A DNA stretch of 64,000 nucleotides. It comes from Strix aluco. Lineage: Eukaryota > Chordata > Aves > Strigiformes > Strigidae. The position numbers and the translations under genes were made by a program. Where the stretch lies: assembly GCF_031877795.1 (NCBI RefSeq), contig NC_133931.1, positions 70,965,429 through 71,029,428 of the forward strand, written 5' to 3'. A model generated the notes under the pieces. That model saw only the letters and a program-made list of their open reading frames with translations. It did not search any database and was not told the origin of the DNA. Within the stretch, counting starts at the first letter, position 1. Each line of letters begins with the position of its first letter. Below are positions 11,046 through 44,859 of the stretch, piece after piece.

Positions 11046-14000
11046 ATGGCGGCGACCGTAGCGGCTTCGCGGAGCTTGGCGAAGCGCTGGCTGCGGCCGG
11101 CGGCGCGGGCGGTGAGTGCCTGTCCTCGGCCTGTCCTGCCCTGCCTTCCCGCCAGCGTCCCGGGGGAGGGGAGAAGGTTAGGCTGCGGGCCTGGCCTGGA
11201 GAAGCCCCTTTAGGAGGGAGATGGGTCAGCTGGGCCTGGGGACCCCGCGCCTCCTGCCCCTCCCCTCAGCCGCGGCGTGGCAGCACGCCTGGCCCCGTCC
11301 TGGACCGTTCTTCCCCACCGCCTGGTGCACGCCGACCGGCGGCGGCCCGTAGCCCCTGTCTCCCCCGTGACCTTGCCGGGGGAGCACCCGCCCCGGGGCG
11401 GGGAGCTGCGGCTGGGCTGCGGGAGCGGGGCAGCCGGGGCCCTGCGGGGCCGAGCTCCCCCTCGGCAGGCTCAGTCCCTCCGATTCTTTTTTCGGAAGGT
11501 GGCCGTCCTTGCTGCTTGGCTCCTGGGGCGGGTTACTGGGAGGTAACTGGTTGTGGGCATGGCCAGGCCGCACCTCCTGTTTGGGAGGCGAGAGCCGTAG
11601 CCTTAGGCTGCGAGGAGGCTCCCTGAAGGCCAGAGGCTGCGGGTACGGGCTGTGCAGGGGAGAGGCTCTGGAAGAGCCGGGCAGGTGCAGCACCTCCCAG
11701 TCCCAGCACCTGGGTAGAAGGTTTACTGCTGGCTTCTTCTGGACCTGTGTGGGAAGCCTAGTGTGTATCTGCATGTTGCTTAAATCTGGCTAGCAGTTGT
11801 TTCCAGGATGTGCTTCTTAAACGTTTGACAGTTTTGTTTTAGCTGATCTGTAAGTAGTCCTTGGTGAAGGTTTGTCTTTCTCTGTGGTAGTGGAAGTCTT
11901 CTGCTGTTCTCATCCTGTGTGTCCATAATGAGCTTGGAATTACAGAAGATGAATGTGTGGGGAAAGGACTCTGTAAATGCAGCTGTTGTTGTCCCCGTCC
12001 TATAAAGCAAGTGCAGAAAAGACAACCTACTGGGAGGGAGAAGGGCTTAAAGAGTGTCATTATGTTGTCATTATTAGATGGCAGTGAACTGGCCCTGATT
12101 GGACCTTTAATTTCATAAGGGCTATGATGTTTGTGATAGCATAACATTTCAGGATTAGTGTTATCAGTGTTTCCTTCAAATTTATGGTAATGTCTTTTTC
12201 TGCTTTGTGGTCTTTTGTTCAGACTCATTCTGAACAAAACTTAGTGGCAGCAGAAATTCTTATGTATTGCTCTAATGAAAAAGCGTTTGTGGATGGCAGT
12301 AGCAGTTCTGAAATCTATTTTGCAAAGCTTAGATGTGAAAAGCTTATATTTCCAGAGTCCTCTGATGCAAAATGTATTTGATCACTGCTTATAGCCACTT
12401 CAGAAAATAAGTTTTTTAAAAGGAAATTAGTTGCAAGGCATTGTGACAGAATTCTGACTGAGATTGCAGCAGGCTGTTTGAAGGGAGAAAAAAAATGGGT
12501 CAGTTTCTTTTGGGGCCTTAGGGCATAACCACAGTTTATAGCTCTTGGGGGTGTGTTTTGGTGTTGTTTTTTCCCCTCAGTCATTTGCACTTCAAGCAAT
12601 AGTAAGCATGTACAAACCTGTGTGCTGTCTTTACATATAGTAAAGATTTACTTTTAATTGCTTTATGCAATAACCAAATGTATTGTTGCTCACCTATGAG
12701 AAATAACTTATTGCAGTAAAAAGAGCTGTACTGTTGCTGGAACAACATTTTGGAAACAAGCAGTAGTAGTATATGCTAGAGAATGCACGGCTGTGACATT
12801 TAAAGTGTTCAGTGTAGCCTGCCATATCAATTGGAGTTCTAGTCTAACTTCAGTTGCACTGAGGCCTGTGAAAGCAGTTTTGCTACAGAGAGGACACCCC
12901 ATTTTAGCTTGAGCTGTGGTTATTGGGAAAGCTGTTTTGCAGACAAATTACATCTGATACATAGATTTCATCTGGCTGTTGGTGAACTAGTTGATCTGAT
13001 TCTGTGTGTGAAATACTAATGAAGATGTTTAATACAAGAATTAAGATGGGCATAGAATTGCACCGAACCATGATAACGCAGCAGAGTGGAAGGGGGAGTA
13101 ACTGCCTGGAGGGGAGGGTACTAGTAGAACTCCTTATGAATAGGTGTTGAGACTGATCTTATTTAAAGATGGCTGCAAAAATCAGAAGTGTGTTAGCATA
13201 TATGATGACGCATTAGGTTCACTGTTATGCGAGAAGATAACTTGAGGAAGCTAGTATGGGAAATGATTAAACTGGGTTGAGGAAAGTGTACTGTAGCTCA
13301 GGGATGGGGGAAGAGATGAGCATTTGGAAGTGATGGGGAGGGAAGACCTGCCTGTTAGCATGCTATAGGGTGATTGAATTGTGAATGTAACATTTGCTGG
13401 AAAAGACAAATACCACTCTAGTGCATTTTAGCATATATATCTAATAGGGAAGTGCTGATGTTGTTGCACAGGTTGCTGGTATGGCTTTGTGATGCTGTTC
13501 TCATCAATCATACATGCTCAGTTATGTGTGTTTTTCTGAACAGTGTAAGTAAGGAAAACCAGGTTCCAAGAAATAGGGTATTTCTACTGTAGAGACTAAA
13601 ATTCTGATTGTTTTAACCCATTAAAGCAAAGACTGGATACTGGGTAGGTTTGTGTGGTGGGATTTTTTGTTTTGGTTTTGAACATCTCAGGGGAGAGGAG
13701 AGAAAACTGCCCTTTTGCTTCATTTAGGTATTAATAAATGATTCTAAATTGGCCTCCAATTAATAGAGAACGAGAAGAAGAGAAATATCTCTGACTTTTG
13801 AAATAATGGTGAACTGGAACAGCTTTTCCTACCACTTACTTTTTTATCTTCATTACTCTTGACCACCTGAAATAATTCAAATTCTGAGGATTGCTTGACA
13901 TGAGAGGTATTTTTTCCCTTAATTCTTGTGGTTCCCATGAAGCTGTCTCCATCTTTGTTTACTTATGAAAAAAAAAAATGTAAGAATACTACAGCATTAA

Positions 14001-42700: not shown

Positions 42701-44859
42701 ACAAGAGAATTTGGTATTTCAGCTAAAAAATTTGGATTTTTGTTTTCTTTAGCAACTATCTGTTACTAATTTCTGTTACTGCTGAATACCAAAGGATTAC
42801 ATGCTTTTGGCAAGTGAGTCATGTAAAATTGTAAATAATTAGACTTAGACTTTAGTATTTAAAATAATGTCTGCCTTTTACAGTGTGAGCAGGATACACC
42901 AAGAATACATACTGCTGCTTCTGTATATTTAATTAAAAGAAGTCAAGTTACAAATCACCTTGTACTGAAATTTGGATGTTTTCACACCAAGTCATAATTC
43001 TTATTTTCTTCGAGTCATCTCTTTTTTTTTTTTTTTTTTCTTTCTTAAAACCAAGAAGAAAAATTAAACAGGAGAAATTGCAGAAAAGAATATAAACAAA
43101 AGCATCAAATCAGAAGATTATGGAGAACTGTCTATAAGATGGTGAAGGAATAGCATAGAGGTTAGGGTAGGGATGATAGTTTAAAAAGAATTAAGGTGTC
43201 TTGCAGAAAAGATCCTAATACTAAATACAAATAAAAGGAAAGTTTTTGAGTTTTTGTTGTCTTAGAAATAAGAAGCACAGAGGGAGCAGCATGTCATATA
43301 TTTCTTTTCTACACTGCCTATATTGACTAATACTGCTTTTTTATTATTCTAGTTAGAAGTGATTGAAAGAAAATGGGAATTTTATAATAAAATCAGTGTC
43401 ACTCCCTTACTGTGTCTGCTTAGGGTAGTGGGTTTTTTTCCACAGATCTGAACATACTACTTTTAAGCATAGAGCACCTGATTTTGAAGCGGGGGAAAAA
43501 ATAAAATAATATTGAACAGCCAAGAGATGTACCTAGCAGAAGATAAATCTCGATAGAAAGAGACACCTCTCCCCCCAAAAAGTGGCATGTTACAGATTGT
43601 CAAAGTAGAGAACTAATGCCAGATCTTATTGTACTTTATATTTTTAGATGTCCTCTCTTGATTAGTACCTGAAGGGGGAAATGACAACAAATTAGATGCC
43701 TTCATGTATTTTTTACTTGGTTATTTGCAAACTGTTCTAACAATGTCTGTACATACTGTGGTGGTCTTCATGCAAGAATTCTTCTCTATTTAATGCTTCT
43801 CACAAAGTTCTTTTAAATAGGAGTGGCTGACCTTACCCTGCAGAAGGAGGAGGGTGTACTATTCACTGTACTCCTTTTCTACAAATGGCCCGTTAAATAA
43901 GTGGATATTGCCGAAGCAGCACTGGTTATGAATAAGTGCTCGATTGTGCAGCTATGAATGTAATAGTTGGTATTTTTTCTTTTTTTTTTTTTCTTAGATT
44001 AAAAATGTTTTAAACTCTGCAAGACTTCTTGGAGATGTTTGTAGTTCTTTCACTGACAACTGTGTAGTTGGAATTCAAGCCAATATGGACAGGATCAACA
44101 AACTAATGAGTGAATCTTTGATGTTGGTAACAGCACTGAACCCACATATAGGTAGGGTTTAAGGCTCAGAAACTTCTCAGAACATTATACTGAAATATTT
44201 TGTGGTAATATTATTTTGCACACGTTATTTCTATTGTCACAATGTTTAGGAGACCAAGTCACGGCTCAGGCCAAAAGTTAATTTACTCTAACATCACTAG
44301 CTGCTACTACTGTTGAAAAAGATGTGTTCTCCTTGCAGTGGACATACCACTGCAGTATAAAAATAATTCTGACTAGAGTAAAAAAAAAATCAGGAGATTG
44401 CAAGAATTTGTGTGCCTATCATCCTGATTTGACCACCAGTAATGAAAAGTGAAAGATTATAATGAGTTTGGTTTTTTTTTAAAAAAAGAGGAAGTCACGT
44501 AAAACTTTGATCTAAATGCATTAAGACCAGAATTTACCTTCACTTTAAGGAGTTGGTGTAAACATTTGGTGCGCATTTACTGCAAATGGAGTTAAGCAGT
44601 AATAGCAATATCTAGCAAATCAATTCTCTGAAGGCCAAGTGTCCCACTTTTTTCTCGCCTCTAACAAATCTTCGGATATTGCAAATGGCTAACTGGTTTG
44701 TTTTGTTTTGTTCCAGGATATGATAAAGCAGCCAAGATTGCCAAAACTGCGCACAAAGAAGGGACGACATTAAAAGAAGCTGCTATAAAGCTGGGCTTCC
44801 TTACGTCAGACCAGTTTGATCAGTGGGTGAAGCCTAAAGATATGCTAGGTCCTCAGTAA
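27718..44859 (+). CDS. FH: FH, fumarate hydratase (class II fumarase)
   Basis: Ten coding exons: 27718-27846, 33148-33282, 34056-34166, 36720-36896, 37760-37942, 38936-39101, 40892-41095, 42271-42398, 43998-44151 and 44717-44859 (TAA). Introns are GT-AG and phases close to 509 aa (human 510). FH hydrates fumarate to L-malate in the TCA cycle as a homotetramer. Family motifs are intact: [14 protein letters not shown] (142-155), [11 protein letters not shown] (174-184), GRTHTQDA with H234, and the fumarase signature GSSIMPGKVN (363-372), whose codons span the exon 7/8 junction. Residues 1-42 are Arg/Ala/Pro-rich, as in a mitochondrial presequence. A second in-frame ATG at 27742 has the better Kozak context (GCCGCCATG) and would give 501 aa. 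Met43 is the last codon of exon 1 and aligns with human Met44, the cytosolic-form start. FH begins 1.4 kb after SDHA. Confidence 0.97.
31030..31430. other. GC-rich island of unknown origin in FH intron 1
   Basis: About 400 bp of GC-rich sequence sits in an AT-rich intron, away from any promoter. Open frames of more than 110 codons exist on both strands. One minus-strand frame reads protein-like (for example [18 protein letters not shown]), but I recognise no family. It may be an inserted retrosequence or an unclassified repeat. The start and end are approximate and no gene is claimed. Confidence 0.35.
31540..32210 (-). mobile_element. Ancient, degraded CR1-like LINE 3' region
   Basis: From memory, several segments fit in order the reverse complement of an old amniote CR1 3' region: AGCTGGCAGAGAGTTTCATC, GTGTGAAGAGCTGCTTTCTT, CTTGTATTGGAAGAGACAGC, ACAGCCATCACCGTTCTACC, and near 32060-32190 GCTGCAACACTGACTTGATG, ATAGAGCTATCC and GGAGCTGGGATTG. 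Divergence is high and there are internal gaps, so it is far older than the copies at 2258-5291 and 14463-14650. The boundaries are approximate. Confidence 0.65.

Follow-up and report, generated by a model that had tools for sequence, protein, structure and literature searches.

The closest described arrangement is that of chicken, where a segment of chromosome 2 (85.92–86.41 Mb in Gallus_gallus-5.0) is listed as carrying CHMP5, FH, SDHA, CCDC127, SLC6A19, SLC6A18, TERT, CLPTM1L, LPCAT1, NDUFS6 and IRX4 (PMC10035218, Table 3). FH had been assigned to that chromosome by a radiation-hybrid map in 2005, in which it was the sole one of nine tested human-chromosome-1 markers to be placed there, away from the others; the PCR product behind the placement was sequenced, and the placement is independent of the genome assembly (PMC548691). 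The main text of the mapping study does not include SDHA and therefore says nothing on the SDHA–FH pair. Going by that table and that text, the adjacency is already known: it is in print as a chicken gene list, and FH has been on record on chicken chromosome 2 since 2005. Within our searches of one library, no paper on the adjacency as such was found, and the accessible part of PMC4057121 yielded no location for SDHA.

The DNA analysed here, which we refer to as the window, is a 64 kb stretch of the Strix aluco genome (positions 70,965,429 to 71,029,428 of contig C1, which is 173 Mb long in a genome of 1.41 Gb and 202 contigs). It holds, in order, CCDC127 on the minus strand and SDHA, FH, CHMP5 and BAG1 on the plus strand. 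SDHA and FH are arranged head to tail, with 1,435 bases between the stop codon of the one and the start codon of the other, and we found no run of N across the 264 kb around them. The original prediction held that these two consecutive TCA-cycle genes sit intact in tandem, and with both frames free of internal stops, that spacing and the ungapped surroundings, its claim is borne out; CCDC127, CHMP5 and BAG1, which it did not mention, are part of the same block. We take human SDHA to lie at 5p15.33 and human FH at 1q43 (the bands given in that prediction), the former adjoined by CCDC127 and the latter by RGS7 and KMO. The human arrangement thus resembles the window in having CCDC127 beside SDHA and differs from it in having FH on another chromosome.

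Read in the opposite direction, the window contains the chicken order of CHMP5, FH, SDHA and CCDC127, the last under the name that we presume for it. Over these four genes the chicken order is the same, with FH beside SDHA as here; the published list gives names only, with neither strands nor distances, and BAG1 is absent from it (PMC10035218). The SDHA–FH adjacency is real, was accurately described and is common to chicken, and because the same order is listed there, inverted, this genome is not alone in having it. Beyond CCDC127, approximately 42 kb upstream of the window, a single SLC6-transporter exon (PF00209) was found on the minus strand, as the chicken order predicts. Among the 60 matches listed out of 68, its closest solved relatives are SLC6A20 (XTRP3; 64.5 bits), a gene missing from the chicken list, and then SLC6A19 (52 bits); SLC6A18 does not appear among them. 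From this gene order, the contig appears to be the counterpart of chicken chromosome 2.

Gene models of SDHA and FH

SDHA (11046..26282, plus strand) was modeled with 15 coding exons joined by 14 GT-AG junctions into a single open frame, running from an ATG at 11046 to a stop that ends at 26282. The product is probably 665 residues long, with no internal stop; this full-length open frame matches vertebrate SDHA, and the match to chicken SDHA in the PDB has E = 0. In the printed alignment with that protein (PDB 1yq3, chain A), six positions differ over a 505-residue query, which consisted of exons 3 to 12 joined and left out the first two and the last three coding exons.

FH (27718..44859, plus strand) has 10 coding exons and nine GT-AG junctions, again in a single open frame without internal stops, from an ATG at 27718 to a stop ending at 44859, and probably encodes 509 residues. 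Its exons match human FH (PDB 5upp and 3e04) in three stretches, and the full-length frame matches fumarase and includes GSSIMPGKVNP, which we take to be the fumarase signature motif, as expected for a class II fumarase. The coordinates and the description of two intact, intron-containing genes in the original prediction thus hold for both loci. A retrocopy origin of either gene was ruled out, since both retain introns.

The GT-AG intron ends were imposed by the script that built the SDHA and FH models and so are not an independent test of them. Four acceptors were re-chosen, one per gene plus the exon 2 start in each. With the better exon 2 acceptor, SDHA has 665 rather than 659 residues and FH 509 rather than 505; the shorter models are also open, and in both genes the start of exon 2 is a choice between acceptors.

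A search of the same genome with the PF00206 profile, which gives a lower bound, returned at least 12 matches, four of them in the window and eight on contig C19. Among the matches listed, FH in the window is the only FH-like locus, and ADSL, presumably another member of this family, is absent. The C19 matches (8 of the 12) fall in a tandem of fumarase-superfamily genes at G000:C19:9999699-10018161, which we take to be probably ASL/delta-crystallin.

Neighbouring genes and other features of the region

Upstream of SDHA, and head to head with it, lies a large coding ORF on the minus strand (8826..9557; 243 residues from stop to stop). It had no Pfam match; we take it to be CCDC127, a name that agrees with the chicken gene list. 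Downstream of FH, on the plus strand, seven coding pieces were located at 45320..52551, the ATG at 45320 being 460 bases past the FH stop. Joined, these pieces match the Snf7 family with 142.1 bits (cut-off 27.3), and we presume the gene to be CHMP5, a name that the chicken list also backs. In this model one internal exon was not located, and the start of the third piece is wrong as the script placed it. Four further plus-strand coding exons, at 57123..58918, match the ubiquitin family with 35.6 bits (cut-off 25.4) and presumably belong to BAG1; its first exon was not located, and the located exons gave no BAG-domain match. The initial Pfam scan had left CCDC127, BAG1 and three flank exons without identification, and CHMP5 had fallen below the cut-off that it passes with the better model.

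CHMP5 and BAG1, both on the plus strand, lie tail to head over 45320–58918, whereas we believe the human genes to be head to head; for this reason the CHMP5–BAG1 part of the block was probably rearranged as well.

The surroundings hold several other features. A long LINE on the plus strand at 2559–5205, which we assign to the CR1 family, has endonuclease and reverse-transcriptase reading frames interrupted by a few frameshifts, and further CR1-like pieces occur in the flanks of the window. In window coordinates, two plus-strand exons at approximately 86.4–88.6 kb (L021), the second ending ...EELQDLLSQDWRVKGALL, gave neither a PDB nor a Pfam match and are presumably ZNF830 (CCDC16). A minus-strand exon at approximately 98.2–98.7 kb (L022), which starts MAKVSTQTASVTTP... 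and lies near a CpG island at 98101–98730, was given no identification by Pfam. Approximately 65 kb past BAG1, also on the minus strand, is a KH-domain exon (PF00013; L024-L025, approximately 123.7–124.1 kb), which we take to be of the PCBP type.

Promoter and polyadenylation signals

Four CpG islands were found in the window at the thresholds used. One lies between CCDC127 and SDHA (10191..11530) and is probably a two-way promoter; a second (27331..28450) spans the start and first exon of FH and is its probable promoter. The other two, over the CHMP5 start (44941..45870) and upstream of the located BAG1 exons (53071..54400), may serve those genes in the same way. Downstream of SDHA, on the plus strand, three poly(A)-type motifs fall within 26515..26582 (AATAAA at 26515 and 26577, ATTAAA at 26524), and 754 bases separate the last of them from the FH island; an AATAAA also follows FH (44889..44894, plus strand). 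All of these are motif matches.

Because SDHA and FH have separate CpG islands and are each followed by poly(A)-type motifs, the layout is that of independent genes, though compatible with shared chromatin or rare read-through, and SDHA, FH and CHMP5 are most likely separate transcription units. The island at FH, a feature of the sequence rather than the outcome of a promoter assay, argues against one promoter serving both SDHA and FH, as an operon-like or dicistronic pair would have.

Origin of the adjacency

Our preferred reading, to which we give a probability of about 0.88, is that an old rearrangement joined FH to SDHA and that the result was simply inherited, with each gene keeping its own promoter and poly(A) site. 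One or more rearrangements would have set FH and CHMP5–BAG1 alongside the CCDC127–SDHA block, so that FH (presumably at 1q43 in human) came to lie beside SDHA on the counterpart of chicken chromosome 2. The block CCDC127–SDHA–FH–CHMP5–BAG1 would then have been passed on, with transcription of each gene starting at a separate CpG-island promoter and ending at a separate poly(A) site, and the neighbourhood would contribute nothing particular to the TCA cycle. We infer that FH moved and SDHA did not, because SDHA keeps CCDC127, presumably its human neighbour, and because FH alone of the nine human-chromosome-1 markers on the published radiation-hybrid map falls on chicken chromosome 2. Unless it has arisen twice, the arrangement dates back at least to the divergence of this bird and chicken. 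Chance rearrangement was one of the explanations offered with the original prediction, and it gains support from the same neighbours being listed on chicken chromosome 2 and from the placement of FH there by radiation hybrids.

The adjacency might instead have arisen by chance and been kept by selection, with a shared regulatory domain, open chromatin or an enhancer coordinating two consecutive TCA-cycle enzymes. The shared direction of the genes, the 1.4 kb between them and the order listed in chicken are all consistent with this, but the unrelated CCDC127 and CHMP5 have been kept adjacent too, so that conservation does not single out SDHA–FH, and the start of FH lies in a CpG island of its own; we regard selection as unlikely. 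The same strand and the short gap might also suggest that the two genes are partly expressed as a single read-through or fused transcript. With three poly(A)-type motifs within 300 bases after SDHA and a separate CpG island over the first exon of FH, this appears very unlikely, and the read-through and shared chromatin that had been put forward for the pair find no support in these sequence features.

Two further explanations would place the cause in the assembly or in the chromosome. A misjoin would agree with the genes being on different human chromosomes, as the original prediction stated, but it was rejected as highly improbable on the lack of any N run in 264 kb and on the two chicken sources, the gene list and the radiation-hybrid map, which put FH on the same chromosome and, in the case of the list, next to SDHA. 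The presence of CHMP5 and BAG1, which we take to be on human 9p, suggested that the block could be on the Z chromosome and share its dosage, much of human 9p being Z-linked in birds. The chicken list, however, has CHMP5, FH and SDHA on chromosome 2, and because that chromosome is an autosome, the idea that sex linkage gives the genes a shared dosage lacks support; we rejected Z linkage as having scarcely any probability. A mosaic or germline-restricted chromosome, also suggested by CHMP5 and BAG1, was dropped on the same list.

Returning to inherited rearrangement, the number of adjacent pairs expected by chance is 0.02–0.05 for 18–30 TCA-cycle genes among 16,000, these gene numbers being assumed. 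The coincidence is therefore uncommon for the TCA cycle alone, but the pair was picked post hoc from many pathways and genomes, and the adjacency is ordinary unless shared regulation is shown. As far as the sequence goes, its functional meaning is probably nil. Both FH and SDHA are tumour-suppressor genes in human, which makes their pairing eye-catching and adds nothing on function. If rearrangement is all that lies behind it, SDHA–FH can serve as a landmark on chromosome 2 of birds and offers a natural test: the two genes lie apart in human but side by side in birds, and an effect of linkage on their co-expression is therefore measurable. If linkage did matter, such a pair would be a rarity among the metabolic genes of vertebrates.
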